A stretch of 47,273 nucleotides of DNA from a virus, in the IMG/VR virus record IMGVR_UViG_3300006737_000053, positions 1-47,273 of that record; one strand, 5' to 3'. Every line of letters begins with the position of its first letter. Position 1 is the first letter of the stretch. Below, in pieces: positions 19,741 to 36,795 of this stretch. Made by a program: the position numbers and the translations under genes. Below the pieces are notes generated by a model. It saw only the letters and a list, made by a program, of their open reading frames with translations. It did no database searches and was not told the origin of the DNA.

Positions 19741-19769
19741 CTTATACCACCCTAATAATATTAGGTCAA
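19741..19769 (-). promoter_or_regulatory. Promoter with embedded palindromic operator (P1)
   Basis: On the minus strand TTGACC (19764-19769) and TATAAG (19741-19746) are separated by 17 nt. The spacer holds CCTAATAATATTAGG (19751-19765, plus strand), a perfect 15-bp palindrome and the best member of the set. It drives the 95-aa gene and probably the small genes that lead to terL. A protein bound there would block RNA polymerase, so repression is the simple prediction. Confidence 0.82.
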
Positions 19770-19779
19770 CTCTTTTTTC

Positions 19780-19995
19780 CTACAGTTGAAGACGACCATT
19801 ACCTCTATCGCCTATTGTAGCAGGCATAACCTTAGACCTATAGCCATCGGCCTCGATCTTAACGAGCGACCACCAGCCCTCAAAATGTGGCTCGTGCAAC
19901 CAAAATGGTTTCTTTACCCAAGTCACCTTCAGGCCCACCACTTTAGGGTGGGCCTTTTTGATAATCTTTTTGATAGTGGGTAAGCTAGGCTTCAT
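19780..19995 (-). CDS. Small basic protein (71 aa)
   Basis: A 71-residue protein, MKPSLPTIKKIIKKAHPKVVGLKVTWVKKPFWLHEPHFEGWWSLVKIEADG. The ATG at 19995 is preferred, since GAGTGAGGA lies upstream and it overlaps the previous stop as ATGA; a longer frame would lack a ribosome site. The sequence suggests a short helix then a small beta sheet with several tryptophans. It is the second gene of the two-gene unit driven by the promoter at 20269-20297. Function unknown. Confidence 0.68.
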   Translation of the reverse strand: MKPSLPTIKKIIKKAHPKVVGLKVTWVKKPFWLHEPHFEGWWSLVKIEADGYRSKVMPATIGDRGNGRLQL

Positions 19996-20240
19996 ATTAT
20001 CCTCACTCTCTTGTTTACTATAAACTGTGCATTCATTTCTGCCCAACGGATCGCTTGATCACGATCAGAGAACCTTCTCATTAATGGGCGGTCAGATGAT
20101 CCTATCTTAGAAATCTCTACTCCATAATCACCTGTCTCGATGTCGCGCACGATGGTCACTTCATCTTTAGGTGTGTTAATGGATTTGAATGTTAAAAAAT
20201 CTGAAGTTCCAAAAATCATTTCTGAGCCTATGTTTTCCAT
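19992..20240 (-). CDS. Small protein under an operator-bearing promoter (82 aa)
   Basis: An 82-residue protein, MENIGSEMIFGTSDFLTFKSINTPKDEVTIVRDIETGDYGVEISKIGSSDRPLMRRFSDRDQAIRWAEMNAQF. The pattern is beta strands followed by an amphipathic helix, as in many small phage early proteins. CGGAG sits eleven bases before the ATG inside the common leader. It is the first gene after the promoter at 20269-20297 and overlaps the next gene by four bases. Family not recognised. Confidence 0.72.
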   Translation of the reverse strand: MENIGSEMIFGTSDFLTFKSINTPKDEVTIVRDIETGDYGVEISKIGSSDRPLMRRFSDRDQAIRWAEMNAQFIVNKRVRII

Positions 20241-20268
20241 GTCGTTCTCCGTTATTTCGTTATAACTA

Positions 20269-20297
20269 TTTATACTACCCTACTCATATTAGGTCAA
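20269..20297 (-). promoter_or_regulatory. Promoter with embedded palindromic operator (P2)
   Basis: On the minus strand TTGACC (20292-20297) and TATAAA (20269-20274) are 17 nt apart. The spacer holds CCTACTCATATTAGG (20279-20293, plus strand), with one half-site matching TATTAGG exactly and the other closer to the CCTACT variant. It drives the 82-aa and 71-aa genes. It starts just after the terS stop codon, so it is separate from the terS transcript. Confidence 0.78.
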
Positions 20298-20300
20298 CTA

Positions 20301-20936
20301 TTATTTTGAATTATCTTCAATTTTTTTCATAAGCGTTTCCATCTCGATTAGCTCTTGATCACTCAGGTTACGCAGATCAACAGCGGCCAGCTGGATCGGA
20401 CCACCACCCTTGCCCGTGTGTTCGTTCGTAACTTTCGTGTGGTCTCCGTAAACTTTAGGAAGCATTTTTGCCAACATCCATTTTCTCGTATCCACACGGA
20501 GTCGGTTCCTAGCAATCGCCTCGTTGCTCAGACGTTCCCTCGTTCCGTCCTCTGCTGTTGTGTAGTTCTCGTCAGCTATCGCCACTAGCTCATCGGCTAG
20601 CAGGAGGTAGCCTGCCTCGCGCGCCTGCGCGTACTGAGTGGCTAACTCAGTAGCCTCTCCTATCCAATCAAGAAAAGTTCTAACAGAAGGTAGCTTATCA
20701 TCGTGATCTAAAATTGATCTGAGAGACTTTCCTTCAGCTATCTGAGCACACACAAGAGCAGTAATCTTCTCTCTATCATAGAGCCTAGCATTAGGTCTTG
20801 TGTGAGGCTTCAAAGTTCGTTTTGATTGTTTTTTTTCTGAATCACTAAAAAAAACATTAGGTTTTTTTGAGCCACTTTTAACCACTTTCAGGTTAGGTTT
20901 TTTACTCTTCTTTTTATCGTCTGTTTTGTCTGTCAT
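20301..20936 (-). CDS. terS: Terminase small subunit
   Basis: A 211-residue protein expected to recognise phage DNA for packaging. The N-terminal 50 residues are Lys-rich and probably disordered. 'KITALVCAQIAEGKSLRSIL' followed by 'PSVRTFLDWIGEATELATQYAQAREAGYLLLADELVAIADE' is the helix-turn-helix and following helices typical of small terminases. The C-terminal part includes 'KWMLAKMLPKVYGDHTKV', also common in the family. The start is ATG 20936 with GGAG upstream; the TTG at 20948 overlaps that site. The inverted repeats just upstream could be its binding or regulatory site. Confidence 0.85.
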   Translation of the reverse strand: MTDKTDDKKKSKKPNLKVVKSGSKKPNVFFSDSEKKQSKRTLKPHTRPNARLYDREKITALVCAQIAEGKSLRSILDHDDKLPSVRTFLDWIGEATELATQYAQAREAGYLLLADELVAIADENYTTAEDGTRERLSNEAIARNRLRVDTRKWMLAKMLPKVYGDHTKVTNEHTGKGGGPIQLAAVDLRNLSDQELIEMETLMKKIEDNSK

Positions 20937-20973
20937 TTTTAGCTCCAAATCACCCTTCCAAAATAGCGTTTTA

Positions 20974-21015
20974 ATTGTTTGTTTTCCCTATAGGGTTTTT
21001 AAGCAAACAAACAAT
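20974..21015. repeat. Inverted repeat upstream of terS with nested palindrome
   Basis: Arms ATTGTTTGTTT (20974-20984) and AAACAAACAAT (21005-21015) are perfectly complementary over 11 bp. The 20-nt spacer contains CCCTATAGGG (20986-20995), itself a perfect 10-bp palindrome. It lies about 40 bases before the terS start. It could be a regulator site, an RNA structure in the terS leader, or a packaging recognition site. Confidence 0.75.
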
Positions 21016-21034
21016 CACTTTTCAATCACTCTAA

Positions 21035-21080
21035 TCAACGACAGATAGGGCTATAAAATAGCCTCTATCTTCTGTCGATT
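21035..21080. repeat. Long hairpin in the SleB-terS gap
   Basis: CGACAGA (21039-21045) pairs with TCTGTCG (21071-21077), extended outward by TCAA/TTGA with one bulge. An inner stem GGCTA/TAGCC (21049-21053 and 21059-21063) closes a TAAAA loop, with a short TAG/CTA helix and a small internal loop between. It lies about 90 bases after the SleB stop codon on the minus strand and has no U tract, so it is not a standard terminator. Copies of ACAATT/AACAAT surround it. Confidence 0.72.
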
Positions 21081-21164
21081 GAGCACTTTAGTCTGTCCTC
21101 TTTTCAATTGTTTTTTTTTCACCCTTCAAAAACCGAACAATTAAAAAACAATCGAACAATAGAC

Positions 21165-21599
21165 TTATTTATAAAATATATGATTACCAATTTGAACCAC
21201 ATATTGATAGTTCCATTTAGGCTCCACATCGACTGAATGATAGAATGTAGAACCCTCTGTAATGTCCATAGAAAGCCCGTAGCTATGCCATGCCTCTTCT
21301 GCCACTTTCATTGCCCGATTAAATGCCACAGGGTCTGTAGGGCGGTCTGATTTACCGTCACAATAGTATGAGAACTGACACTTATGTTTAATAGGTTTTG
21401 TTTTATCCCATGCTAAAGTTGGACCCTCCTTGACAGTATCACAGATCGTGCTAGGCCATCGACTGTCATGGACCCTGTTAATAACTGTTGTTGCCACGGC
21501 GAGTTGGCCCACGAGAGGTTCTCCGCGGCTCTCATGGTACACTGTGACTGCCAGACAAGTCAGTTGTAATCCTATTGCGACTATTGCTGTCTCTAACAT
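21165..21599 (-). CDS. SleB/CwlJ-type cell-wall hydrolase
   Basis: A 144-residue peptidoglycan hydrolase of the Hydrolase_2 (SleB) family. The first 18 residues (LETAIVAIGLQLTCLAV) are hydrophobic and could be a signal anchor. 'VYHESRGEPLVGQLAVATTVINRV' carries the catalytic glutamate at about residue 23. 'WPSTICDTVKEG', 'CQFSYYCDG', 'AWHSYG' and 'STFYHSVDVEPKWNYQYVVQIGNHIFY' complete the family pattern. It is far from the lysis cassette and next to terS. It may be a virion enzyme or a second lysis enzyme. The leader AACTTATAACGGAG precedes the ATG. Confidence 0.85.
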   Translation of the reverse strand: MLETAIVAIGLQLTCLAVTVYHESRGEPLVGQLAVATTVINRVHDSRWPSTICDTVKEGPTLAWDKTKPIKHKCQFSYYCDGKSDRPTDPVAFNRAMKVAEEAWHSYGLSMDITEGSTFYHSVDVEPKWNYQYVVQIGNHIFYK

Positions 21600-21618
21600 T
21601 GTTATGCTCCGTTATAAG

Positions 21619-21816
21619 TTATACAAGAATATCTATTTTAATTCCCCGTGGTGGATTTGGTGGTGACAGATGATCAGCGTGATCGTGTGGTGGTAGGATT
21701 TGATCTGTCTGATGTTTGTGTCGCTCAACGTGTTTAGGTTCAAGACCTGTCTGTTGGCCTGTTGAATTAAATATTGGGTGCCACATGAGGCTTGAGTTGA
21801 TGCTATCAATACCCAC
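21619..21816 (-). CDS. Possible His/Pro-rich small protein (65 aa)
   Basis: An open frame of 65 codons from GTG 21816 (or ATG 21786, giving 55 residues). The C-terminal half is rich in His and Pro: 'HVERHKHQTDQILPPHDHADHLSPPNPP'. It abuts the preceding gene (stop TAG overlaps GTG) and fills the space before the SleB gene. No convincing ribosome site precedes either start, so coding status is uncertain. A metal-binding tail is conceivable from the His content. Confidence 0.42.
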   Translation of the reverse strand: MGIDSINSSLMWHPIFNSTGQQTGLEPKHVERHKHQTDQILPPHDHADHLSPPNPPRGIKIDILV

Positions 21817-22010
21817 TACATATCCACTTCATTAATTTTTGTTGTGTTTGCTAGCTCATCCAATTCTTTTTTGATGTCGGCTTTTCTGTTCTTAATTTCT
21901 TCTTGCCTAATTTTTTCTGCCTCACTGATTTTTGATTTGTGTGGGACGGAGTCAACAATCTTGTCGTACTGATCTTGGATTTTGCGCATAAACTCTTCAT
22001 CATTTGACAT
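21816..22010 (-). CDS. Small charged coiled-coil protein (64 aa)
   Basis: A 64-residue highly charged protein, MSNDEEFMRKIQDQYDKIVDSVPHKSKISEAEKIRQEEIKNRKADIKKELDEL onwards. It is almost entirely helical with heptad-like spacing. The ATG at 22010 is chosen; the longer frame reads backward into the glycosyltransferase gene. It overlaps that gene's 3' end by 11 bases, so it belongs to the same transcript. Function unknown. Confidence 0.65.
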   Translation of the reverse strand: MSNDEEFMRKIQDQYDKIVDSVPHKSKISEAEKIRQEEIKNRKADIKKELDELANTTKINEVDM

Positions 22011-23136
22011 ATATTTTTTCCAATCCGTAATTATTAACGACCTCGTCATATACAATGTCAGGGTCAACTCTGATTAATTTATTACGTTCAAATGGTTTGT
22101 AGTCAACCCAGTGATGCCAACGGTTGAACCGCCAAGTGACTTTTGCTACATCTGGGTGCATCTCTTCTAGCATCTTTGACTTGAGCATTGTGCCGTCTTG
22201 CTCATAGAACTCTTTAGTGTTTCCACCCTTCAATTTTTGAGTAGACATTTTGTCTTGAAGGACGGCATGGAACTGTATCGTACATAGGCCATCCTTGAGC
22301 ACCCTGAGACATATGTCAGTGTCCTCGTTGTATCTACCTCTCCATCTATACGGTATGGAGTTATCTATAAGTAGGCACGAGTAAATGCGTCTGTTTTTAA
22401 GGAATGGTGGAACGTATTCATTCTCGTGGCAAAACGTATTGTACTGAGGTCCAGCGATTACTACGTTAGTGTAACGGTCTACAAAGTTCTCCATAATCTT
22501 GAAACACGTTCCATCGTCAAATCGTATTCTTTCGTTACGGTTGAGACGTTTCATCCACTCGATGTTGTCATCCATGACCCAGTGTCGTTTATGTCCGTTC
22601 TCGATACTATGGTCCCAAGCAAAGTTTCTAGCTGGGCCAGGTCCAACTCTGGGATCGTCATCAACCCAGAACGTATCATAGTCATCTTTGTAATGTTGTG
22701 GGAGTATGAGCACTTTGTCTTCACCGACCAACTTACAATATTGTTCGTACTCTGACTGTTCGACTACCATGTGGTATGGCACCTTCAGTCTTTCTAATGT
22801 CTGTGATGTTGGATTGTTTGTGAACCGTCCCTTACTGACGATGTAGATAGGATACTTTGGCTGTTGAGGATCTGTGGACCTCATTACATAGTTACTTCTA
22901 ACTTCCTTGAGTGGATACCAAGTAAATTTCTTTTTCTTTTCCTGATAGCCATCAATAAACTTGGCACCGTCATAAACGTGGACCTTGAGCAATTCTTTGA
23001 AGTGTTGATAGTCAGCCTCGTTACGAAATTTAAACGTGGCGGTAATTTCTGGGTCTGGTTCGTTTTCCTGATTAAACTCAGGCATATCCAACCAATGCAA
23101 TCGGTAGTCGTAATCATCAAATAGATCTATAGTCAA
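22000..23136 (-). CDS. Glycosyltransferase of the TET-associated (TAGT) type
   Basis: A 378-residue protein. Residues about 14-75 ('LDMPEFNQENEPDPEITATF', 'FTWYPLKE') match a small domain I have seen in phage proteins of unknown role. From about 90, 'YPIYIVSKGRFTNNPTSQTL', 'VPYHMVVEQSEYEQYCKL', 'GPARNFAWDHSIENGHKRHW', 'VMDDNI' (Asp-Asp for the sugar nucleotide), 'YNEDTDICLRVLKDG' and 'LQDKMSTQKLKGGN' match the glycosyltransferases linked to modified phage DNA. It starts at TTG 23136, with AGGAG eight bases upstream, in a TTGA overlap with the primase. No base-hydroxylating enzyme is seen in the window. Confidence 0.72.
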   Translation of the reverse strand: MTIDLFDDYDYRLHWLDMPEFNQENEPDPEITATFKFRNEADYQHFKELLKVHVYDGAKFIDGYQEKKKKFTWYPLKEVRSNYVMRSTDPQQPKYPIYIVSKGRFTNNPTSQTLERLKVPYHMVVEQSEYEQYCKLVGEDKVLILPQHYKDDYDTFWVDDDPRVGPGPARNFAWDHSIENGHKRHWVMDDNIEWMKRLNRNERIRFDDGTCFKIMENFVDRYTNVVIAGPQYNTFCHENEYVPPFLKNRRIYSCLLIDNSIPYRWRGRYNEDTDICLRVLKDGLCTIQFHAVLQDKMSTQKLKGGNTKEFYEQDGTMLKSKMLEEMHPDVAKVTWRFNRWHHWVDYKPFERNKLIRVDPDIVYDEVVNNYGLEKIYVK

Positions 23137-25277
23137 AACGGTATCTCCTCTAAGTTATCCAATTCGTTATTTGTTATCTGTTGTTCGTTCACTCTTAACC
23201 CATGTTTGGCTCTTCCTTTAGCCTCTGGTAATTCAAACTCTTCAACAATTCCTTCCCCTATCAAATGCTGTATTGCCTTTTCCTTACGAGGCTGAGAGCC
23301 AGCGACACCGCCTCTGGCTGTAGACATTCTCGTATAGTAAGTTATTGCATGGTTAGGATCGGACCTAATTTGATTTTTTAAAGCATCGCATAATTCTAGA
23401 TGGGCTTCCCATTGCTTTTCATCTTTCTTTCTTTGCTTGGCACTGAGCCGTTCACCGTCAGCTAATGGACGAGCTATAGAATGCTGAAACCAAACCCTGT
23501 TATCATAGCCCAAAATATCCTTATGGTCCTGACAATTTGTGACTAGATTAAAAGTTAATTCGTTAAACTCTGTCGGAAATCTCGTCTTAGTCGCACGCAA
23601 TATTCTGGGACTGTCAGCCTCTTCCCCATCCTTGAACACCTGATAAATCCCCATTGCATCACCCGACCAAGCAGAAGCTCCTCTAGGTGACAAACTGTTG
23701 CTTTCCCCATCTCCTAATGCTTTTGCTGTATGGGCAATAATGATAACAGGGAAACCATCGAAAGACTGTTTTACTAAAGCCATCACTCGACCCACTTGAG
23801 AGTTATCGTTCTCATTTTCAATTTCAAAAACAGAGTTAGCTGTATCGAACACGACTAATGGCAAAGCATCGTAAGTTCCACCGTCAGCCATTTCGTTAGG
23901 CACTGTCCAAGTACGATACTCTTCAGCAACTTGGCAGACTATCTCAGCATCCAATCTCTGGGATGGGATAACTTTAATTCTCTCCTCAAAGTCTGAGGCT
24001 CTGGCTCCTGTGTTGCCCCATGTGAATAAACTATACAACACCCTTTGAACTTGAATTACTGACTCCGTAACAATGATTATATTTCTACGGATCAACGGTG
24101 CCAACGTGTAATCTACGGGGTACAAGTGAGCACAACTAACAGCCAATGGAATAGCCAGCGTAGTTTTGCCAATTCCTGGCGGTCCAGCTAAAACATTAAC
24201 CCCGACACTTATGAAGTCATCAAGCAGATACTCAAACGTGGATACTTGTTCTACACCTGAGTGGACGGCTCTATCAAAAGACAACGGATGGCTAGAGCTT
24301 TCACCCTCCAAAAGCACTTGGGAGGAAGCAGATTTTAGGTTTGGCCCCGTCCATCCATTGTCCATTGCCAAACGAAATATGGACCGATAAGTGATACTGT
24401 GCGGAGTATCTAAATCCCGATCCCATTTCTTCCGACAAACTGAAGCGTCAAACTTTTCTGGACTTGTCTTACTCCATTCTAGCCAAGTTGCAAAGCCATT
24501 TTCACCATACGGATGTAATGCTAATCCTACATTTACCCAAGTCTGATAGTCATCACTGTCTACACATTTTAGAGCCTCTTTAAGATCATCAAACGTCTGT
24601 GCCGTTGCCACAGGCACTCCACCGCGCTCAACCAGCTCATAACTCGTTGTATGTGGCCTAGACTTGTCACTGATAAACTTTGGTAGCTCTGATGGTAAAC
24701 TGGGATTGATTTTACTGATGGGTGATTTGCCATCAAACCATTGGTATGAACCTGACACACCGACAGATGGTGCCACACAAATATAGCCTTGATGCTTCAA
24801 GTCTAAGCCAGCGCCCAGTGACGATGGAAAAGAATAACCAGTGTCAGCCTTAAATAGACGGTGCTCACCACCACCTTGAGTCTTGGCGATACAATCACTG
24901 TAAAGCACGCCATGTTCTTTCTCTATGGCCTCTAATGTCTCCACACCACCATTCTGTGGGTCTATATCCAAAGCAATCAACCCAGACTGAGCGAGACTAA
25001 TTCCAAGTCCACAATCTGGGTCTGTAGACAGCCAGTCTTGTATCACCCGTGGATCATTAGATGCATCGAGGTGACCTCTGGGAGCGAGATTTGCCTGTGG
25101 GTGTTTTCCTGGCTTGTGGCCGCGTTCATTATTATCTCTACCACATCTACAAGTGCCGTCCTCGTGTACGTTCCAAGTCGGCACAATAAACCAACCCAGC
25201 TGGATATAACTCATGGCGTAATCTAAAGTAGACGGAGCCTTCTGAACTTCCCATAAATATTTCGGTGTTCTTGCCAT
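23133..25277 (-). CDS. Bifunctional primase-polymerase/helicase
   Basis: A 714-residue replication protein. The N-terminal prim-pol domain shows 'CRCGRDNNERGHKPGKHP' (43-60), the DxD motif 'ALDIDPQNGG' (Asp104, Asp106), 'GGGEHRLF' (His139) and 'GAGLDLKHQG' (Asp159). Residues about 225-310 match the primase C-terminal PriCT-2 region ('QTWVNVGLALHPYG...WDRDL'). The C-terminal RecA-type helicase has Walker A 'AGPPGIGKTT' (364-373) and 'LPLVVFDTANSVF' as Walker B. It starts right after the helicase stop (TAAATG). It would open and prime DNA for the family B polymerase. Confidence 0.9.
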   Translation of the reverse strand: MARTPKYLWEVQKAPSTLDYAMSYIQLGWFIVPTWNVHEDGTCRCGRDNNERGHKPGKHPQANLAPRGHLDASNDPRVIQDWLSTDPDCGLGISLAQSGLIALDIDPQNGGVETLEAIEKEHGVLYSDCIAKTQGGGEHRLFKADTGYSFPSSLGAGLDLKHQGYICVAPSVGVSGSYQWFDGKSPISKINPSLPSELPKFISDKSRPHTTSYELVERGGVPVATAQTFDDLKEALKCVDSDDYQTWVNVGLALHPYGENGFATWLEWSKTSPEKFDASVCRKKWDRDLDTPHSITYRSIFRLAMDNGWTGPNLKSASSQVLLEGESSSHPLSFDRAVHSGVEQVSTFEYLLDDFISVGVNVLAGPPGIGKTTLAIPLAVSCAHLYPVDYTLAPLIRRNIIIVTESVIQVQRVLYSLFTWGNTGARASDFEERIKVIPSQRLDAEIVCQVAEEYRTWTVPNEMADGGTYDALPLVVFDTANSVFEIENENDNSQVGRVMALVKQSFDGFPVIIIAHTAKALGDGESNSLSPRGASAWSGDAMGIYQVFKDGEEADSPRILRATKTRFPTEFNELTFNLVTNCQDHKDILGYDNRVWFQHSIARPLADGERLSAKQRKKDEKQWEAHLELCDALKNQIRSDPNHAITYYTRMSTARGGVAGSQPRKEKAIQHLIGEGIVEEFELPEAKGRAKHGLRVNEQQITNNELDNLEEIPF

Positions 25278-26855
25278 TTAGAAAGTCTCCTCCAAAACAT
25301 TCCAATATTGCCCACGTTTTTTCAGGACCACTGATGTTGGCTTGGGTGCCGACTTGATCATGTAGCTCAAACGATTGGGTGGACACGGTAACGTGACGGG
25401 TAAATTTCGTCTATCAAAAAATCGATAAACATCATCACTTTCTTTATTGGTGTTCAAAAATTTAGTTGCCGTGATCTTGGCATTGTTCTCTGTAAGGCAA
25501 ACATACTTTACGGAAATGTAATTTTTTCCACGAGGGACAAAGCCCTGACAGGCCGATACAGTAGCTGTAACACTGCCGTTGTCACCTATAGCTTTACCAG
25601 TGTTAGGATCAACAGGCTCTATCGTGGTAAGGCCAGGATGTAGGAACCGTTCCTTCTTAACAAACGGTAAGGGAATAAAATTACCTTCAACTATTTCATC
25701 GTTAATTGTTGGACGCTTTTCCATCGTCCATTGTGGCATCATAGAGCAACCACCAAGCCTGAGAAAATTACCAGCAAAGTCTAGAACCAGACAATCTTTT
25801 TTACCCTGAGACAATCGCGTGCCTCGACCTAACGTCTGAACCCACAGGCTACTTGAAAGTGTTGGACGCAAAGATATAATACAATCAAGACTAGGTAAAT
25901 CAAATCCAGTAGTCAGCATATCAACACTGGTTACTGCATTATATCGACCATCCTCTAAGCCCTGATAAACTTCTTGACGTTCATCTTGATCCATCTTGGA
26001 ATGTAAGACAGCTACCTTACGGTCAGTGTATTTTTCTAATTTTTTCTTAACGACCATAGCAACCAAAATTGTAGGCGTGTATACAGCCATAATTTTTCTG
26101 TCACGAGCTACGGTATCGAGCTTTTTACAAACAGATGTAAGCCAACCGTCAGTGATCAACCGTGATGCATCTGCCTGATTGAAATCATTACCGATCAATT
26201 CACAGTCGCTCAAATCCAATTGGATACGGTCTGAGGCTCCGACTAATGGGGATAGGTAACCTTCTTCTACACCTCGTTCTACATTATATTCGTAACTGCA
26301 TTTATTAAACCACCGACTGCCAGAGCTATCGTGTAGGTCACCATTATTGCTATCTCGAACATTGTCATTCTCCCTATAAATTAATCCGTTATCCAATCTC
26401 CAAGGCGTTGCCGTCAAAGCAACTTTTTGGGAACGTGGATAGGCTGTAAATAGTTTTTCGTATTGGCTCGTTCCGTTTTCACATGGCACCCTGTGAGCCT
26501 CGTCTATGATGATTATATCAGGTGCTAAAATGCTAAGATTAGATATGGTCTGAATTGTACCATAAATAATTTTTTCATTTATATCTTGTTCAGTTGGTTT
26601 ATGGATCGAGCTACAACAAATGCCGACAGGTAAAGCAGATAGTCTTTTAAACTGTGCCACATTTTGTTGAACCAACTTTGTGGTGTGCGTTAAAATCCAA
26701 ACCCGTTTATTCTGTCGGCTAAGTGTGTAGGCCAAATCAGCTATAATCAATGATTTGCCAGTTCCAGTAGCTAGATTGAGAACGGGGTTGTAGCCCTTCT
26801 CTAAATCAGCCAAGCAAGTTTTGATTGCTTCAAGTTGATAAGGTCTAGCCCTCAT
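25278..26855 (-). CDS. Superfamily 2 DEAH-box helicase
   Basis: A 525-residue DNA helicase/translocase of the UvsW/RAD25-like type. From ATG 26855: 'RPYQLEAIK' (Q-like motif), Walker A 'ATGTGKSLII' (29-38), 'IIIIDEAHRVP' (DEAH 118-121), 'ALTATPWRLDNGLIY' (motif III), 'TTGFDLPSLDCIISLRPT' (V) and 'VQTLGRGTRLSQGKKDCLVLDF' (VI). The start at 26855 has GAGG upstream; an in-frame ATG 12 bases earlier is possible. It overlaps the ribbon-helix-helix-like gene and precedes the primase. Likely roles are fork remodelling and recombination-dependent replication. Confidence 0.9.
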   Translation of the reverse strand: MRARPYQLEAIKTCLADLEKGYNPVLNLATGTGKSLIIADLAYTLSRQNKRVWILTHTTKLVQQNVAQFKRLSALPVGICCSSIHKPTEQDINEKIIYGTIQTISNLSILAPDIIIIDEAHRVPCENGTSQYEKLFTAYPRSQKVALTATPWRLDNGLIYRENDNVRDSNNGDLHDSSGSRWFNKCSYEYNVERGVEEGYLSPLVGASDRIQLDLSDCELIGNDFNQADASRLITDGWLTSVCKKLDTVARDRKIMAVYTPTILVAMVVKKKLEKYTDRKVAVLHSKMDQDERQEVYQGLEDGRYNAVTSVDMLTTGFDLPSLDCIISLRPTLSSSLWVQTLGRGTRLSQGKKDCLVLDFAGNFLRLGGCSMMPQWTMEKRPTINDEIVEGNFIPLPFVKKERFLHPGLTTIEPVDPNTGKAIGDNGSVTATVSACQGFVPRGKNYISVKYVCLTENNAKITATKFLNTNKESDDVYRFFDRRNLPVTLPCPPNRLSYMIKSAPKPTSVVLKKRGQYWNVLEETF

Positions 26856-27329: not shown

Positions 27330-27358
27330 CGTTATCTCCGTTATCAAGTTATTCTTAT

Positions 27359-27387: not shown

Positions 27388-27393
27388 GTGTGT

Positions 27394-28654: not shown

Positions 28655-28682
28655 ATCGTTATCTCCGTTATAAGTTATAGGA

Positions 28683-29383: not shown

Positions 29384-29384
29384 T

Positions 29385-29621: not shown

Positions 29622-29648
29622 TTGTTATCTCCGTTATTAGTTATAATT

Positions 29649-29894: not shown

Positions 29895-29922
29895 TTGTTA
29901 TCTCCGTTGTTAGTTATTACTC

Positions 29923-29951: not shown

Positions 29952-29961
29952 CCCCTAAAAT

Positions 29962-29989: not shown

Positions 29990-29996
29990 CTTATTA

Positions 29997-30344: not shown

Positions 30345-30375
30345 CTTTATTTCTCCGTTATCAAGTTATAAAAAG

Positions 30376-30404
30376 AACCTAACCCTACTGTAAGGTAGGG
30401 TCAA
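30376..30404 (-). promoter_or_regulatory. Promoter with embedded palindromic operator (P6, weak -10)
   Basis: On the minus strand TTGACC (30399-30404) and, 17 nt on, TAGGTT (30376-30381), a poor -10. The spacer holds CCCTACTGTAAGGTAGGG (30383-30400, plus strand), an imperfect 18-bp palindrome of the same two-base-centre class as P4. It drives the single 115-aa gene. The conserved -35, palindrome and spacing support it despite the weak -10. Confidence 0.65.
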
Positions 30405-30417
30405 GTCCTAATTTCAT

Positions 30418-30933
30418 TCAGGCTACTTTTTTTTCAGGGTCAACATCCCTCATTATATTTTTGTTGACTATCTCTCTACGGAGAATGCGATAGATCTTCT
30501 GCCAGTTCTTCCCGTGAGGTGTGTTGTCACCGTCACGCAACCACCGTGTGTAGATGAAGTAATTGAAGTGTATGAGATGTGCTACCTCATGGGCAACGAT
30601 AAGCATCAGAGCGTCCTCTGGGGTTGCAAACGTACCTTCCCCAATAATCGGATCGTTTTTAATTCGGGCGTACTCATGTTGAAAAGTTCTACCCTTGCGA
30701 TATTGACTTACATCAATACACATATAATTTTTACCGCCAGATGAACTTTGGCCTCGACACTTAACTTTAAGATATAGTTTATCCCAGACTTTAGCGACAG
30801 TCAGTTTCTCAGATCTTGGCCCCATGATTTCCCATTTGGATTTCACGATCTCTTTCAGGCATTGTTTGGTAAGACGCTTCACCAAGTCGCGCTCTGCGAT
30901 AGTGACGTTTTTAGATTTATAAATTAATCCCAT
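30418..30933 (-). CDS. SprT-like zinc metalloprotease
   Basis: A 171-residue protein with the SprT/WLM-type core. The zinc motif HEVAH is at residues 115-119 ('ALMLIVAHEVAHLIHFNYF'), and a third ligand is probable at His140 in 'DNTPHGKNWQKIYRILRRE', the usual HGxxW position. The N-terminal 100 residues include strands 'AKVWDKLYLKVKCRG' and 'NYMCIDVSQYRKG'. The size fits the family. Cellular relatives act on DNA-protein crosslinks; a phage role in clearing proteins from replicating DNA is plausible but untested. P7, the best promoter in the set, lies upstream. Confidence 0.82.
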   Translation of the reverse strand: MGLIYKSKNVTIAERDLVKRLTKQCLKEIVKSKWEIMGPRSEKLTVAKVWDKLYLKVKCRGQSSSGGKNYMCIDVSQYRKGRTFQHEYARIKNDPIIGEGTFATPEDALMLIVAHEVAHLIHFNYFIYTRWLRDGDNTPHGKNWQKIYRILRREIVNKNIMRDVDPEKKVA

Positions 30934-30964
30934 AGTTAAATCTCCGTTATTGAGTTATTTAAGA

Positions 30965-30993
30965 AGTATACGCCTAATCGTATTAGTTGTCAA
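30965..30993 (-). promoter_or_regulatory. Promoter with embedded palindromic operator (P7, strongest)
   Basis: On the minus strand a perfect TTGACA (30988-30993) and TATACT (30965-30970) are 17 nt apart, so this is close to the sigma70 consensus. The spacer holds CCTAATCGTATTAGT (30973-30987, plus strand), a near-palindrome with one end mismatch. It drives the SprT-like gene and forms the left side of the divergent control region. Confidence 0.83.
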
Positions 30994-31038
30994 TACACCT
31001 GGTAAGTCATTGTTTTTATTGACTTTTTTTGGGCCCTA

Positions 31039-31072
31039 AACCGAAATCGGTTAGCAGTTTACCGAATACGGT
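31039..31072. promoter_or_regulatory. Paired palindromic operators in the divergent region
   Basis: AACCGAAATCGGTT (31039-31052) and ACCGAATACGGT (31061-31072) are two related palindromes with centres 21 bp apart, two helical turns, so dimers bound at both would lie on the same DNA face. They sit between P7 and the plus-strand candidate promoter, upstream of the latter. They differ in sequence from the CCTAAT-type operators, so a second regulator is implied. Confidence 0.65.
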
Positions 31073-31081
31073 TAAATAGGG

Positions 31082-31110
31082 TTGTCATTTCTGAGGCGAT
31101 TCGTTATGGT
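31082..31110 (+). promoter_or_regulatory. Candidate promoter for the replication island
   Basis: TTGTCA (31082-31087), 17 nt, then TATGGT (31105-31110). It lies just downstream of the paired operators and 35 bases before the first plus-strand gene. Both hexamers deviate from consensus, but the spacing is ideal and no better candidate is visible for the plus-strand series. A weak promoter helped by an activator at the upstream sites would fit. Confidence 0.45.
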
Positions 31111-31144
31111 TGCAGAGTCATAACTTATAACGAAATAGCGACTA

Positions 31145-31318
31145 ATGATGCTTTCAAAATTTGTACTCATATTATTTTGTCTAGGCACCCTTGCACTTTA
31201 TGCCTATGTATCCTCTGCCGATTGGGACATGGAAGATCGGGAGTTTAAGGAATATTGTCAGATGGTAAAGTGGGGAGCTTGGCCCGACTATAAAAATCTG
31301 GAGCAACACTGTGACTGA
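31145..31318 (+). CDS. Small membrane-anchored protein before the DNA polymerase (57 aa)
   Basis: A short frame from ATG 31145 or, in frame, ATG 31148. The translation MLSKFVLILFCLGTLALYAY continues VSSADWDMEDREFKEYCQMV and ends KWGAWPDYKNLEQHCD. Residues 4-23 form one membrane segment or signal anchor, followed by an acidic-aromatic tail with two cysteines. It overlaps the polymerase GTG start by eight bases, which argues for translational coupling. No ribosome site is visible, but part of the common leader (ATAACTTATAACG) lies upstream. Function unknown. Confidence 0.55.
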   Translation: MMLSKFVLILFCLGTLALYAYVSSADWDMEDREFKEYCQMVKWGAWPDYKNLEQHCD

Positions 31319-33134
31319 AAAGCATTGGGTGTTTGACACAGAGGTCTATAGCAATTGCACATTATTTTTAGCTCAGTGTGTTGAGACAGAGGAATGGTTT
31401 GAACTGTTTAAATCTGACGATGGGTCTGACAGTCGTTTAGAAGCGTTTCTGAGGGAGCCTAATACATTTGTTGGGTTCAACTCCCAAAATTATGACACCC
31501 TCATTGTATCGGCTTGGTGTCAGGGTATGAGTAGCGAACAGATTAAGGCTATGAGTGATGACATCATTCAAAACGAAATCAGCCCGTTTGCAATCAAGAA
31601 AAAATATAAGTTAAAAGACAAAATTAAAAATCATATAGATTTGATTGAGGTTGCCCCGTCATTTGTGGGTCTTAAAGCATACGGTGCGAGAATGTTTATG
31701 GATCTCCTTCAGGACTTGCCATTTGAACCTGATAGCGTACTCACAGAGCACGATGAACATGAGTTGGCGTTGTACTGTCAAAATGATGTTAAGACCACTG
31801 TAGAGCTATTTAAAAGGCTTCAGAAAGAGATTGAACTGCGAATAGAGTTGTCGGTGCAATATTGGTTAGATCTCCGTAGCAAATCTGATAGTCAAATTGC
31901 AGAACAGGTATTTATAAAAAATTTGAAGTTAAAGGCACAGGAAATACCAATTCCAAAAACGGTACGGTATCAACCGCCTCATTATTTACAAATGTATTTC
32001 AGTGGAACTCAGGAGGTTTTAGACAGAGCCTCAAATTTAGAATTTCAGGTAGACCAACAGTCAGGTCACATTAAGATGCCGTCTGAGTTGGATATTGAAG
32101 TCTACAGTCGCACTGGGTCATATAAGATTGGTATCGGTGGTCTACATAGTACCCACGATAAAAAGGTTACTCACGTTGCAGGTAAAGACCACCAGATCAT
32201 GGAAATAGATGCAGCGAGCTTTTACCCCACGATAATGTTAAATGGCGGTCTGTGTCCTTCTCATATCGGTCAAAAGTTTATTGACGAATATCAACGGATT
32301 TATGATCAACGCATTAAGGCTAAAATGTCAGGGGATAAGACTGTAGCTGACACGCTCAAAATTAGTTTGAACGGTACGTTTGGAAAACTGGCAAGCAAAC
32401 ATTCAACACTCTATGCCCCAGACCTTATGTTAGCCACAACTCTGACGGGTCAGTTTACATTACTGATGTTGATTGAATGGCTTGAGAACGAGGGATCAGA
32501 AATTGAAATCCTGTCAGCTAATACAGACGGCATTGTCGTAAAGTTTCCAAATTTTAGAGAACAAAATGTTAGAGATTGTGTGGCTGAATTTGAGGAACTG
32601 TCTTGTTTCAGTTTTGAATACACGCCATACAAGTGTCTCGCCATAAAAGACGTTAACAATTATATTGCCGTGAAACCTGATCAGACGATCAAAGCTAAGG
32701 GGATATATGCTCCAATCAGTTTACGCAAAAATCCCACGGCTCCAATCTGCTCAGAGGCTGTAGGCAAGTGGTTAGCAACAGGCGTGGACTTTGAGACAAC
32801 GATTGATCAAGCACCCTTCCACGGCTTTATAACAGCCCGTAGCGTGACAGGTGGAGCACAACAAGGTGGATTGTATCTAGGAAAAGTTGTGAGGTGGTAT
32901 CAATCAACTGAGAGCGCAACACTTGCACCAATCCTTTATGAAAAGAACGGCAACAAGGTAGCTAAATCTGAAGGAGCGCGACAGTGCATGAATATACAGA
33001 AGTGGGATGAACAACCAAAAGATTTAGACAAGGCTTGGTATGTTCGGGAATGTATTGAGATTGCCCATCAATTAGGTGCCGAAACTTTTCTTGATCTTAA
33101 TCAAATATTTGTCAGTAATTTTGGAGTGAAATAA
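31311..33134 (+). CDS. Family B DNA polymerase with 3'-5' exonuclease
   Basis: The replicative polymerase, 607 residues, short for family B. Exonuclease motifs: 'FDTEVYSN' (8-15, Exo I), 'GFNSQNYDT' (Exo II) and 'LYCQNDVKTT' (Exo III). Polymerase motifs: A 'MEIDAASFYPTIM', B 'LKISLNGTFGKLASK', C 'SANTDGIVVKF', in which the usual first Asp of DTD is Asn and the second is kept, as in some phage enzymes. The start is GTG 31311 with GGAG upstream; Exo I is so close that a later start is unlikely. No protein-primed signature is obvious, so it probably works with the primase-helicase at 23133-25277. Confidence 0.88.
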   Translation: MTEKHWVFDTEVYSNCTLFLAQCVETEEWFELFKSDDGSDSRLEAFLREPNTFVGFNSQNYDTLIVSAWCQGMSSEQIKAMSDDIIQNEISPFAIKKKYKLKDKIKNHIDLIEVAPSFVGLKAYGARMFMDLLQDLPFEPDSVLTEHDEHELALYCQNDVKTTVELFKRLQKEIELRIELSVQYWLDLRSKSDSQIAEQVFIKNLKLKAQEIPIPKTVRYQPPHYLQMYFSGTQEVLDRASNLEFQVDQQSGHIKMPSELDIEVYSRTGSYKIGIGGLHSTHDKKVTHVAGKDHQIMEIDAASFYPTIMLNGGLCPSHIGQKFIDEYQRIYDQRIKAKMSGDKTVADTLKISLNGTFGKLASKHSTLYAPDLMLATTLTGQFTLLMLIEWLENEGSEIEILSANTDGIVVKFPNFREQNVRDCVAEFEELSCFSFEYTPYKCLAIKDVNNYIAVKPDQTIKAKGIYAPISLRKNPTAPICSEAVGKWLATGVDFETTIDQAPFHGFITARSVTGGAQQGGLYLGKVVRWYQSTESATLAPILYEKNGNKVAKSEGARQCMNIQKWDEQPKDLDKAWYVRECIEIAHQLGAETFLDLNQIFVSNFGVK

Positions 33135-33442
33135 TGCCAACAGTTTACGTTATACAAAACGACAATAAAGATTTATCAGATGCTAAACAGTATGGAGAGC
33201 TTGAGGCAGTTTTCTTTAATCCTAGAAAGCCATACGATACTAATTTTTTATTAGACATGGCTCACAAGGTTTTAAGCAAAATAACCAAATATGATTACAT
33301 TCTTATGGTAGGTGACCCTGCTTTGTGTAGCGTGGCAACGGCTGTTGCACGCGAATACTGTGATGAAATAAATATACTCAGTTGGGATAGACGGAGCTTC
33401 AGCTACGCCCCTCTGACGTTCGATTTTGCAGATGCGGAATGA
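33134..33442 (+). CDS. Small protein after the polymerase (102 aa)
   Basis: A 102-residue protein, MPTVYVIQNDNKDLSDAKQYGELEAVFFNPRKPYDTNFLLDMAHKVLSKITKYDYILMVGDPALCSVATAVAREYCD onwards. Alternating strands and helices ('TVYVIQN', 'YDYILMVGDPALCSVATAVA', 'INILSWDR') suggest a small Rossmann-like alpha/beta fold. It begins in a TAATG overlap with the polymerase stop. I recall similar short genes near phage replication genes, function unassigned. Confidence 0.75.
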   Translation: MPTVYVIQNDNKDLSDAKQYGELEAVFFNPRKPYDTNFLLDMAHKVLSKITKYDYILMVGDPALCSVATAVAREYCDEINILSWDRRSFSYAPLTFDFADAE

Positions 33443-33471
33443 CAACCGCTAATTTCATAAAGGAGAAAAAA

Positions 33472-34224
33472 ATGTCAAAACAAAAAGAACCTGAATGGCA
33501 AAGGAGTTTGCGTGTTGGTAAACAGAAAGTGCCACCCCGTATTTGTTTGTACGGAGGTCATGGGATCGGCAAGTCAACATTGGCTAGTCAGTTCCCAGAA
33601 CCAATCTTTATAAGTACAGAGGACGGCCTAGATAGTTTGGACGTTACGAGCTTTCCAAAGGCTACCGAAAATAGTCAGATTATCGATGCGATAGGCACGT
33701 TAATTAAAGAAGATCACAAATTTAAAACGTGTGTTATTGACTCAGTGGATTGGCTAATAGAGCCTTTAATTTCCACCCTCGTAGAAAATAGTCACGAGGC
33801 TAAAGATTTAGCTTACGGTAAATTTGCCGTGTTATGTGCTGAAGAATTTCGTGAGATATTACAAGGTTTGGATGTGCTCCGTCAAAAACGTGGCATGAAC
33901 ATTGTGTTGGTTGCTCACTCTCAGGTATCTAAATTTGAAGATCCAAGAACTGAGCCTTACGATAGGTATAGTCCAAAGCTACCAAACAGATGTAATGCTC
34001 TACTAATGGAGTGGGTAGATGTTTTAGCATTTTGTGCAATGGATGTGATGATACGAAAATCAGACACTGGCTTTAACACTTCAAAGACACGAGGTGTATC
34101 GTCAGGTGAACGTCTGTTGCACTATGTTGAAACGCCAGCTTTCGCATCTAAAAATCGTTACGGTTGCCCAGAGCAATCACCAATGACCTATGAAGAATTA
34201 TCTTCTGTAATCCCTGTTGTATAA
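33472..34224 (+). CDS. Sak4-like RecA-fold ATPase
   Basis: A 250-residue ATPase of the AAA_24/Sak4 type, a phage single-strand annealing/recombination protein. Walker A is 'LYGGHGIGKSTLA' (about 27-39); 'FKTCVIDSVDWLIEPLI' is Walker B, with 'IVLVAHSQVSKFEDP' as the later RecA-core strand. The start is ATG 33472 with AAAGGAG; the longer frame overlaps the previous gene. It is followed by a DUF669 protein and a nuclease, the usual companions of Sak4-type recombinases. It probably anneals or loads DNA at forks and ends. Confidence 0.85.
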   Translation: MSKQKEPEWQRSLRVGKQKVPPRICLYGGHGIGKSTLASQFPEPIFISTEDGLDSLDVTSFPKATENSQIIDAIGTLIKEDHKFKTCVIDSVDWLIEPLISTLVENSHEAKDLAYGKFAVLCAEEFREILQGLDVLRQKRGMNIVLVAHSQVSKFEDPRTEPYDRYSPKLPNRCNALLMEWVDVLAFCAMDVMIRKSDTGFNTSKTRGVSSGERLLHYVETPAFASKNRYGCPEQSPMTYEELSSVIPVV

Positions 34225-34239
34225 AGAAAGGAAACAACA

Positions 34240-34713
34240 ATGCCTAAATTTGGATTTGATATAACTGAAGTTGAAGCTAACGAGCCAATCAATTATGACC
34301 CATTACCAAAAGGTGAATACACCTTGCGTGGCATAGAGGCTGAGTTAAAAGACACCAAAAATAACGCTGGCAGTTACATTGCTGTTAAGTACGAGGTATC
34401 TAAAGGTGAATATGAAGGACGTTTTATCTGGTTTAATTTTAACGTCACGAATGCATCTCAACAGGCTGAGACTATCGGTAGACAACAATTAGTTGCATGG
34501 GCAACAGCTTGTGGAAAGCCTGACTGTGATGACACCGATATGTTAATGGAAAAACCATTTCAGGCAAATGTTGGGATACGGACAGGAACAAATGGTTATG
34601 CTGATAAAAACGAGATAACAGGTTTTCTTTTTAAACCTTCAGCAAAACCACGGCCTGCTCCTAAATCAGCACCTGTGGAAACCCCGTCAAGTTCAGGTAA
34701 GCCTTGGGATTAA
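34240..34713 (+). CDS. DUF669 protein, probable single-strand DNA-binding partner
   Basis: A 157-residue protein with the DUF669 pattern: 'YDPLPKGEYTLRGIEAELKDTKNNAGSYIAVKYEVSKGEYEGRFIWFNFNVTN', then 'IGRQQLVAWATACGK' and a C-terminal 'KNEITGFLFKPSAKP...SSSGKPWD'. The beta-rich body resembles an OB fold and the disordered tail ending in Pro-Trp-Asp resembles SSB tips that recruit partners. It lies 15 bases after the Sak4-like gene. Binding of single-stranded DNA is a family-level inference. Confidence 0.82.
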   Translation: MPKFGFDITEVEANEPINYDPLPKGEYTLRGIEAELKDTKNNAGSYIAVKYEVSKGEYEGRFIWFNFNVTNASQQAETIGRQQLVAWATACGKPDCDDTDMLMEKPFQANVGIRTGTNGYADKNEITGFLFKPSAKPRPAPKSAPVETPSSSGKPWD

Positions 34714-34721
34714 TAATAACA

Positions 34722-34741
34722 GGGGAGGGTTATCCCTCCCC
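34722..34741 (+). terminator. Strong hairpin between DUF669 and the nuclease gene
   Basis: GGGGAGGG-TTAT-CCCTCCCC is a perfect 8-bp GC-rich stem with a 4-nt loop, eight bases after the DUF669 stop. It lacks a U tract (ATAAGG follows) and is followed within 15 bases by the next start codon. It could attenuate the downstream genes, protect the 3' end of upstream mRNA, or mark an RNA processing site. A full terminator here is unlikely. Confidence 0.6.
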
Positions 34742-34754
34742 ATAAGGATTACTT

Positions 34755-35573
34755 ATGGTTGCGTTTCCTAAAAGCCCAGAACAAAAACTTATAGATGCTG
34801 TATATAAATCTTATGAAAAAACAGAAAACCTGTCGTTTAGTCGATTAGGTGCGTCTGGTATCGGTGAAGAATGTATTCGTAAAATCTGGTTTAACTGGCG
34901 TGGATTTTCAAAAAAACAATTTGAAGGACGGATGTTAAGACTGTTTGAAACAGGCCATTTACAAGAAGACCGTGTAATTCAGGATTTAATTCGATCTGGT
35001 AAAGAAGTTTATTTTGTTAATGAGTATGGCAGTCAATACGAATTTGAACATGACAGTGGTCATTTTATTTGTAAGGTTGATGGTGTTATAAAACACCAAG
35101 ATAAAAATCATTTATTAGAAATAAAAACGCATAATAAAAAATCATTCAGTGCATTACAGAGACACGGTGTAGAAAAGTCTAAACCCGTTCACTATAGCCA
35201 AATGCAAATCTCTATGTATTTAGGACACTTTACACGAGGCTTATATGTGTCGTTATGTAAAGACGATGAACATTATTACATTGAAAAAATAAAAGAAGAC
35301 AAAGCTCATCAAAAATCATTGATTAAAAAAATAAAAAGTCTGATTAATGCACGCATGAGGCCAACAGGCATTAGTGAGGATGCGAGTATTTTTGCTTGTA
35401 AATTTTGTGATCATAAAGATGTGTGCGTTAAAGAAACAAAACCTCTGTTTCATTGTCGATCTTGTGTGAATGCTATTCCTATAAATAATGGTGGATGGAA
35501 TTGTGACTTGCATGGTACGCTTTTAAACAAGCAACAACAACTCATAGGATGTGAGGACTATCAGGCATTATGA
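34755..35573 (+). CDS. Cas4/RecB-like nuclease
   Basis: A 272-residue PD-(D/E)XK nuclease. Residues about 35-48 ('IGEECIRKIWFNW') match the N-terminal Cas4/RecB motif with its cysteine. The active site is 'FICKVDGVIKHQDKNHLLEIKTHNKKSF' (Asp and Glu-x-Lys), and 'YSQMQISMYLG' is the conserved QxxxY helix. The C-terminal part holds several cysteines ('FACKFCDHKDVCVK', 'HCRSCVNAI', 'GWNCDLHG') that could bind an iron-sulphur cluster or zinc. It precedes the RuvC-like gene by a four-base overlap. It is probably the exonuclease partner of the annealing protein. Confidence 0.83.
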   Translation: MVAFPKSPEQKLIDAVYKSYEKTENLSFSRLGASGIGEECIRKIWFNWRGFSKKQFEGRMLRLFETGHLQEDRVIQDLIRSGKEVYFVNEYGSQYEFEHDSGHFICKVDGVIKHQDKNHLLEIKTHNKKSFSALQRHGVEKSKPVHYSQMQISMYLGHFTRGLYVSLCKDDEHYYIEKIKEDKAHQKSLIKKIKSLINARMRPTGISEDASIFACKFCDHKDVCVKETKPLFHCRSCVNAIPINNGGWNCDLHGTLLNKQQQLIGCEDYQAL

Positions 35574-36046
35574 TTACCATTGGAATAGATCCTGGCCTTA
35601 CTGGAGCCATTGGTGTTTTAAATGATGGTCAATTTGTTGCTGTAGAGGATATGCCAGTTATCGTGAAGGGAAACGGTAAAGTAAAAAATGAAGTAGATGT
35701 TTCTGGCACTATCCGACTGTTGAGGCAATACGGAGAACCTTCTGAATATATTTCGTGTGTTATTGAGCGTGTTAATGCAAGACCGCATCAGAATGTATCA
35801 ACCATATTTTCGTTGGGTGACTCTTTTGGGTGTGCTCGTTCTGCTGTATCGGCTTGCCGTTTTGAACTACGGTATGTAACGCCACAGGTATGGAAAAAAC
35901 ATTTTAAATTAAGTTCTGACAAAGAACAGTGTCGGGCATATGCTGTTAAACTATGGCCTGACGCACCATTGCATTTAAAGAAACACCAAGACAGGGCCGA
36001 AGCCCTGTTGATGTCTAAATGGCTGTACGATACTTTCTACGACTGA
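35570..36046 (+). CDS. RuvC-like Holliday junction resolvase
   Basis: A 158-residue RNase H-fold nuclease. 'MITIGIDPGLTGAIG' contains Asp7, 'CVIERVNARPHQNVSTIFSLGDSFG' contains Glu66, and 'KHQDRAEALLMSKW' contains Asp141 and Glu144, placing the four acidic residues as in RuvC-type enzymes. The size is right. It starts in an ATGA overlap with the nuclease stop. It would cut branched DNA during recombination or before packaging. It ends four bases from the convergent zinc-finger/OB gene. Confidence 0.88.
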   Translation: MITIGIDPGLTGAIGVLNDGQFVAVEDMPVIVKGNGKVKNEVDVSGTIRLLRQYGEPSEYISCVIERVNARPHQNVSTIFSLGDSFGCARSAVSACRFELRYVTPQVWKKHFKLSSDKEQCRAYAVKLWPDAPLHLKKHQDRAEALLMSKWLYDTFYD

Positions 36047-36050
36047 CCTA

Positions 36051-36737
36051 TTACCTCCTATCTTCCATTGGGTCCCAACCGTTCCAACCATCATTCTCCT
36101 GATATGGAGCTACATACTCTTCTGGTTCTGGATCTGGGTCTAAAATTCCAATTCTATTTTCTCTAGTGCTTTCTGTTAACACTGCTTTGGTAGGTCTTTT
36201 GAAAAACCCAAATTTCGGGTCTTTGTCAGATGGTGTAACTGTGGCAGAAAAAGTAATGGTATCGCCCTTGGCACAGTTAGCTACTCTACCATCAATGCTT
36301 GGGATAGATCCCCACACTACAAAACCATTATTATCTTTAACTGTCATTTTCCAAACTGAACCAAAAGGAGTGTTTTTTAGATCAACTTTAAGAATTGTAC
36401 CAGAAACAGTGATTTTACCTGTTGGTACATCTTCCGCTTTAGCTTTCTCTTCTGCCCACTGTGCCTCACGCTCTACTTGTTTTTCTGCGAAAGTAAGACC
36501 ACCTGTGATCTCACGCTGTTTAGCTAATCGCTTCTCTTGACGAGCAAGTAAAGCCTCATCTCTTTTTTTCTGAGCACGAGCACGAGCTAATGCGCGATCT
36601 TCAGGAGAAGTTTTGAAGGTTTTGTGACCTACGCCTTCACAATCCCAACAAGATTTTTTATGATCAGGACGGTCAATTACACCCCATCTAAGAAGTCCTG
36701 TGCCGTCACATTTTGTGCAAGTTTCTGTAAAAGCCAT
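36051..36737 (-). CDS. DnaJ-type zinc-finger plus OB-like protein (228 aa)
   Basis: A 228-residue protein. Residues 7-36 carry two CxxCxGxG motifs ('CTKCDGTG' and 'CWDCEGVG'; Cys7, 10, 30, 33), one zinc site of DnaJ type. A charged coiled coil follows (about 45-95). Residues about 105-180 ('ITVSGTILKVDLKNTPFGSV', 'GDTITFSATVTPS', 'FGFFKRPTKAVLTE') are strands compatible with an OB fold. The last 30 residues are acidic. No J domain is present. The common leader and P8 precede the ATG. Binding of single-stranded nucleic acid is a sensible guess. Confidence 0.72.
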   Translation of the reverse strand: MAFTETCTKCDGTGLLRWGVIDRPDHKKSCWDCEGVGHKTFKTSPEDRALARARAQKKRDEALLARQEKRLAKQREITGGLTFAEKQVEREAQWAEEKAKAEDVPTGKITVSGTILKVDLKNTPFGSVWKMTVKDNNGFVVWGSIPSIDGRVANCAKGDTITFSATVTPSDKDPKFGFFKRPTKAVLTESTRENRIGILDPDPEPEEYVAPYQENDGWNGWDPMEDRR

Positions 36738-36766
36738 TTGTCATCTCCGTTATAAGTTATTCTTTA

Positions 36767-36795
36767 TTTATATACCCTACTTTACTTAGGGTCAA
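36767..36795 (-). promoter_or_regulatory. Promoter with embedded palindromic operator (P8)
   Basis: On the minus strand TTGACC (36790-36795) and TATAAA (36767-36772) are 17 nt apart. The spacer holds CCTACTTTACTTAGG (36776-36790, plus strand), an imperfect 15-bp palindrome. It drives the zinc-finger/OB gene, more than 5 kb from the other sites, and its -35 overlaps the last codons of the endolysin gene. Confidence 0.75.

Follow-up and report, generated by a model that had tools for sequence, protein, structure and literature searches.

What is the palindrome that occupies the -35/-10 spacer of eight promoters in the virus record IMGVR_UViG_3300006737_000053, and does it join these promoters into one regulon? 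The window analyzed in this study is the whole record of 47,273 bases, for which near-identical relatives were found among IMG/VR contigs. The promoters, named P1 to P8, are parts of modules that also contain a common leader. The modules and their conservation, the clade-specific operators and the exchange of genes behind fixed operators were directly observed: close relatives conserve the operator, and in a sister clade another operator has taken its place throughout. On balance, it is probable that a clade-specific and likely phage-encoded dimeric repressor shuts off a dispersed regulon of early and accessory genes by occupying the spacers.

Eight promoter modules in the window

The original prediction of eight minus-strand promoters was borne out: all of them were found at the predicted positions and on the predicted strand, and every spacer was 17 nt. 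The -35 hexamer was TTGACC in seven of the eight promoters and TTGACA at P7, and the -10 hexamer of P6 was weak. P1 (19719..19769; TTGACC-17-TATAAG) contains the operator CCTAATATTATTAGG (19751-19765) and the leader ATAACTTAATAACGGAG, and is followed first by gene 19425-19712 and then by gene 19185-19412. P2 (20247..20297; TTGACC-17-TATAAA; operator CCTAATATGAGTAGG, 20279-20293) lies directly after the gene of the terminase small subunit, and its first gene is 19992-20240. P3 (27336..27387; TTGACC-17-TATAAC; operator CCTAATATAATTAGG, 27368-27382) precedes genes 27018-27329 and 26845-27018 and then the helicase/primase genes. P4 (29036..29087; TTGACC-17-TATATT; operator CCTACTACATAGTAGG, 29067-29082) has 28704-29027 as its first gene, and its operon also includes the gene of a candidate regulator (28072-28365). 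P5 (29902..29951; TTGACC-17-TATAAA; operator CCTAATACGGTTAGG, 29932-29946), whose first gene is 29649-29894, has an intrinsic terminator (29967-29992) immediately upstream. P6 (30353..30404; TTGACC-17-TAGGTT; operator CCTACCTTACAGTAGG, 30384-30399), P7 (30942..30993; TTGACA-17-TATACT; operator ACTAATACGATTAGG, 30973-30987) and P8 (36745..36795; TTGACC-17-TATAAA; operator CCTAAGTAAAGTAGG, 36776-36790) precede gene 29997-30344, an SprT-like gene (30418-30933) and gene 36051-36737, respectively. The genes driven by the modules are mostly without known function, and they had no match in PADLOC-DB, which is a defence library and not an acr library. That none of the promoters lies in the structural region, as had been proposed, is inexact. 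P1 and P2 sit between the two terminase genes, that of the small subunit (20301-20948) and that of the large subunit (17377-18963). These genes are direct neighbors in the sister clade and are separated in the window by the P1 and P2 units.

Each of the eight sites is followed by the leader ATAACTTnATAACGGAGA, with small variants, which ends in a ribosome site and was not mentioned in the original prediction. The leader was also found without promoter and operator at four other genes, so that eight copies come with the palindrome and four without, all on the minus strand. These solo copies are ATAACTAATAACGGAG at 29629..29644, before gene 29385-29621; ATAACTTATAACGGAG at 28663..28678, within the P4 operon, and again at 21607..21622, before an endolysin-like gene (21165-21599); and a shortened form (ATACGATAACGGAG) at 19420..19433, before gene 19185-19412 within the P1 operon. 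In addition, a leader variant, ATAACTTATAACG, is located ahead of the plus-strand replication operon. Similar to P5, several modules of the sister clade and one module of the relative L022 are preceded by terminator-like hairpins. Given the terminators upstream of some modules and the leader, the building block consists of a terminator (in some cases), promoter, operator, leader and one or a few small genes.

The palindromes belong to the family CCTA-N7/N8-TAGG, of which P7 reads ACTA. In the window, six copies of CCTA-N7-TAGG and two of CCTA-N8-TAGG were found, against an expectation of 0.3 for each. Seven of these eight palindromes are those of P1-P6 and P8, and the remaining one is at 1801, in a tail gene (967-2622). 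The presence of the same operator at several promoters is far above chance. A position matrix, which had been suggested as a check, separated the sites clearly: with 29 nt it gave the eight sites 19-33 bits and the rest of the window at most 10.6. When each site was held out of its own matrix, six ranked among or right behind the training sites, and P6 and P7 ranked 9th and 85th of 94,490 positions; P7 is thus the weakest and most divergent member. When tested singly by permutation, the palindromicity of the spacers of P1, P4, P6 and P8 was significant (p 0.0002-0.035).

Spacer letters alone in a fixed register did not discriminate the sites, because the palindrome slides. Its center is at spacer position 6 in P1 and P2, 7 in P3, P5 and P8, 7.5 in P4 and P6, and 8 in P7. 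Its offset from the -35 hexamer therefore varies by 2 bp, and the span from CTA to TAG is 13 or 14 bp. Sliding relative to the -35 hexamer points to a symmetric element that is separate from the promoter, not to promoter sequence copied along. The arm beside the -35 hexamer had been described as the best conserved, which applies to P1, P2, P3 and P5 (CCTAATA) and nearly to P7 (ACTAATA), and not to P4, P6 and P8.

A protein bound in the spacer could also activate transcription, either as MerR does or by stabilizing RNA polymerase. MerR-type operators indeed sit between the -35 and -10 hexamers. MerR-type spacers are 19-20 bp long, however, whereas all eight spacers in the window have the optimal 17 bp together with good hexamers, so that no twist of the DNA would be needed. 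Moreover, the site slides by 2 bp relative to the promoter. Activation is thus considered very unlikely.

Operators and exchanged genes in related phages

The modules were kept in contigs whose polymerases were 94-100% identical to that of the window, and the operator changes among them were mostly at the center of the palindrome. For instance, the P6 core is CTAC-CTTACA-GTAG in the window and CTAC-TGTAAG-GTAG in the relatives L024 and L031, which is an exact inversion between the arms, and the 40 upstream bases and the -10 hexamer around it are identical to those of the window. One small inversion would be the simplest account of this difference, which suggests that the orientation of the site may be irrelevant. 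Behind the same module, different relatives have unrelated genes at P4, P6 and P8. As to the inversion itself, it is confined to the six-base core of the palindrome within the P6 promoter (30404-30376 in the window; 877, minus strand, in L024; also in L031), and it looks like a natural microinversion in a very short inverted repeat. A CA/TG difference of a similar kind was found in the P4 core of L022.

P4 and P6 share their flanks, as expected of duplicates, and both score as terminator-like. These features would fit a system without any trans-acting factor, in which accessory genes were duplicated along with one strong promoter, and the palindrome either came along as a passenger or weakly terminates transcripts from upstream as a hairpin. 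However, a T-run after the hairpin is lacking at the other sites, and P5 has its separate terminator upstream. The outer arms also stay while the centers change or invert. Finally, the sister clade has a different symmetric sequence throughout the set, which is not expected of passenger DNA. Given these results, a passenger palindrome is very unlikely.

The sister clade consists of contigs with identities of ~90% in TerL and ~64% in the polymerase, such as G001, G002 and G004; L140, L141, L143, L146 and L155 were assigned to it by their polymerases. At its orthologues of P1, P3, P7 and P8, the hexamers, the 17-nt spacing and the leader are the same, and the operator is CTACTCCGGAGTAG, in full at one promoter and with one good half at each of the others. 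The sister orthologues of the genes behind P7 and P8 come with CTACTCCGGA. The sister operator and that of P4 (CTACTACATAGTAG) share the spacer position of their center, and within the sister clade the sites at P3 have the opposite orientation to those at P7 and P8. The 9-mer TACTCCGGA occurs five times per sister genome, both strands counted, and all TACTCCGG matches listed in the sister genomes fall within the four module promoters. An exact-pattern search of the sister genomes found no operator of the window type. Loss of the operator in the sister clade was considered and rejected, as the replaced operator was revealed by a promoter scan that ignored the operator. The original prediction had named relatives that keep the hexamers and lose the palindrome as evidence against it; instead, a different operator occupies this position in the sister clade. 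When viral contigs were searched for promoter plus leader irrespective of the operator, most matches came from the two clades, and nearly all spacers were of the two types. In a different phage group (L148, L151, L152, L154, L159, L160, and L167), a single promoter, TTGACATTACTACCCAAAGGTAGTATAAT, is accompanied by the leader ATAACTTAAACTGACACAACGGAG, and CTACC-N4-GGTAG forms the palindrome in its spacer, close to the -10 hexamer.

Genes were also compared between the two clades. A 60-aa gene starting MSINKILTESIYSDE (MSINKILTES..) is 98% identical between them, with 179 of 183 nt identical between L022 and L140, whose polymerases are 94% (window clade) and 64% (sister clade) identical to that of the window, respectively. 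Its promoter is TTGACC-CTAAGTGAAGTAGGGTA, of the window type, in L022 and TTGCAA-TCTACTCCGGAAACAGT, of the sister type, in L140, and the near-identity of the two contigs starts inside the leader. Similarly, the SprT-like genes of the window and G004 are identical at 449 of 491 nt, with long identical blocks that indicate a mosaic, and their upstream regions at 109 of 155 nt; each gene has the operator of its own clade. These comparisons indicate that genes crossed between the clades and that the operators did not. From where the identity begins, we infer that the crossovers probably occurred within the leader. Fixed operators with moving genes would be the pattern expected from selection for a clade-resident trans-acting regulator. 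The accessory genes that moved are possibly anti-defence genes. As two operator types stand before one gene, nature has provided a promoter-swap experiment that separates the operator from the gene and opens the question of which early protein recognizes the operator to direct tests.

Candidate regulators and described systems

For a phage-wide regulon made from one copied promoter module, as originally proposed, the conservation of the module, its sliding palindrome, both orientations of the site and the set-wise replacement provide support in part. The eight sites would be strong sigma-70 promoters of early and accessory units; all share a 5' leader with a ribosome site and have a symmetric operator between the -35 and -10 hexamers. 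As both the hexamers and their distance of 17 nt come close to the optimum, these promoters should fire unaided. A homodimeric, clade-specific DNA-binding protein would then occupy the operator and keep out the host RNA polymerase. This protein is most likely encoded by the phage, because the operator differs between two phage clades that recombine. The early genes would be on at once upon infection and jointly off once the regulator accumulates, similar to the logic of Aca and Arc. Phages commonly express their early genes in a burst, which an early regulator then ends. Accessory genes may be swapped by recombination in the conserved leader, through which a newcomer would fall under the resident operator. 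Transcription from the modules, binding, repression, its timing and the phage origin of the binder are what we infer from these sequence comparisons. A wider proposal, which is possible and still rather doubtful, is that in apparently non-temperate marine phages each clade has its own pair of regulator and operator, comparable to an immunity type. Accessory genes would then move freely between clades by recombination in a universal leader, whereas the operators would stay and place each newcomer under the resident repressor, which would represent a new family of small phage regulators. The module can also serve as a guide to early accessory genes, which possibly act in anti-defence, in an uncultured group of marine phages in which nearly all such genes lack a function.

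The first candidate for the regulator is a 97-aa protein encoded at 28072-28365 (minus strand). Its AlphaFold model has a strand-like N-terminus, helices at residues 22-33 and 37-52 and an IPR turn, an order like that of ribbon-helix-helix (RHH) proteins. Its homologues in the sister clade, with identities of 25-36%, are encoded in the operon downstream of the P3 promoter of that clade. Relatives of the protein were found in the two clades only and in none of 84,980 bacterial and archaeal genomes. It had no family match and no significant fold or profile match. The 97-aa protein is possibly, although less likely than not, the regulator, and it is a lead only. A second and weaker candidate, the 57-aa protein encoded at 26845-27018 (minus strand) in the P3 operon, has a strand and one helix by eye and is 34-36% identical between the clades. 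A basic 75-aa protein (19185-19412) is encoded behind the operator in both clades. Its AlphaFold model is a beta-sheet with a C-terminal helix and had no informative Foldseek match; it is retained as a remote candidate only.

Several results weigh against a phage-encoded dimeric repressor. No recognized repressor family was found among the window proteins by searches with Pfam, PHROGs, NCBIfam, PADLOC and PDB profiles, and Aca-like or helix-turn-helix (HTH) families had no match among the early proteins scanned. The model of the 97-aa protein is of low confidence (pLDDT 64.5, pTM 0.36), and its Foldseek match to the RHH regulator SvtR is non-significant (E 8.4). In addition, the palindromicity of P2, P3, P5 and P7 was singly marginal in the permutation test (p 0.06-0.14), and three of the four sister sites are merely half-symmetric. 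The lack of a recognizable repressor in the phage would be explained if the spacer palindrome was hijacked from the host, that is, if it binds a host transcription factor, the early genes obey a host signal and the hosts of the two clades differ in the specificity of this factor. The promoters indeed resemble host sigma-70 promoters. However, the operator differs between phage clades that are ~90% identical in TerL and recombine genes. Moreover, a scan of the 84,980 genomes, which covered promoter and leader in combination and not the operator by itself, returned ten scattered and chance-like matches, mostly in Firmicutes. A host regulator is thus considered unlikely, and a clade-specific repressor from the phage itself is preferred.

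The original prediction knew of no description of this exact system. This holds for the sequence in the literature searchable here, while the design has precedents (PMC9410906, PMC11065993, PMC3203893). The nearest description is that of the Cluster K mycobacteriophages, in which accessory genes are preceded by SAS, a leader with a ribosome site that has 11-19 copies; some 50% of these copies have an inverted repeat just upstream (ESAS; PMC3203893). The consensus of the ESAS repeat varies by subcluster, for which the authors proposed different binding specificities, and its role as promoter or operator was left open there (PMC3203893). Similar to the modules of the window, a conserved leader occurs with and without an upstream inverted repeat. 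Different from ESAS, with its 17-bp arms and spacer of 4-13 bp, the palindrome in this study is 15-16 bp long and lies inside a clear -35/-10 spacer. The sequences and hosts are also unrelated, and Cluster K phages are largely temperate. The SAS sequence GGGATAGGAGCCC is absent as a leader from the window, where ATAACTTnATAACGGAGA takes this place. What is added beyond SAS and ESAS is an unrelated phage group, the clear -35/-10 placement and the gene exchange across two operator types, and this architecture bears on the similar repeats of Cluster K.

In acr promoters controlled by Aca proteins, the inverted repeat is regularly located within the core promoter, and reporter assays have demonstrated repression (PMC9410906). 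Similar to the modules, these are strong early promoters whose core includes the inverted repeat, and the Aca binder blocks RNA polymerase there. However, they form one acr-aca operon per element with HTH Aca proteins, whereas the window has eight dispersed units, in which neither an acr nor an Aca gene was recognized. Early accessory genes of the archaeal virus SIRV2 have in common a regulatory sequence around their strong promoters, and Aca8 has been proposed as the early viral regulator that shuts them off (PMC11065993). There, too, many small accessory genes are under a virus-specific sequence, and the sequences differ between viruses. Different from the bacterial sigma-70 promoters of the window, those of SIRV2 are archaeal TATA/BRE promoters for which a winged HTH regulator was proposed.

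The stoperators of mycobacteriophage L5 are comparable in that one phage repressor has many dispersed sites, some of which are in early promoters. The same is true of the C1 operators of phage P1 and the conserved inverted repeats of phiC31. These are immunity systems of temperate phages, whereas in the window all sites are promoter spacers and neither an integrase nor a CI-like repressor was detected among the larger proteins. Arc of phage P22, an RHH repressor, binds between the -35 and -10 hexamers of one promoter. The site of the modules is similarly placed, and the 97-aa candidate is likened to Arc by helix order, not by homology.

Other features of the phage

The IMG/VR relatives of the phage and its nearest cultured phages point to a marine origin. 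By terminase, the latter are the Roseobacter phages CRP-901/902 (46-48%), in which the operator-free promoter scan found no such modules. Megablast of positions 19000-37000 of the window against the phage collection returned no match. The replication and recombination genes of the window encode a DNA polymerase (phrog_1252), a Sak4-like protein, a Cas4-type exonuclease, a RuvC-like resolvase, a helicase and a primase. The structural and packaging genes encode terminase, head, portal and tail proteins. Among the larger window proteins, PHROGs gave no match to an integrase, a CI-like repressor or an RNA polymerase, in a scan that smaller proteins could escape.

The structural region also encodes a GroES-like co-chaperonin and a match to a phage "ferredoxin" family (9257-9688 and 10011-10709, minus strand). 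The phage has two different endolysin-like genes, the one at 21165-21599 and a second at 36782-37237, both on the minus strand. In the early region beside the primase, the product of 22000-23136 (minus strand) matches phrog_842, annotated as beta-glucosyl-HMC-alpha-glucosyltransferase, and may be a DNA-modifying glycosyltransferase. Between the endolysin-like gene and the gene of the terminase small subunit, an A/T-rich intergenic region (20950-21160) contains repeated ATTGTTTG/CAATTGTT motifs and inverted repeats, and is possibly a late promoter, an origin or a packaging region. Finally, two ACCG-N4-CGGT palindromes, 21 bp apart and the only ones in the window, are found at 31040-31072 (plus strand), directly upstream of the likely promoter of the replication operon (TTGTCA-17-TATGGT, 31082-31110). 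This pair was kept in the close clade with changed centers, was not seen in the sister clade, and is possibly a different operator with an activating role.

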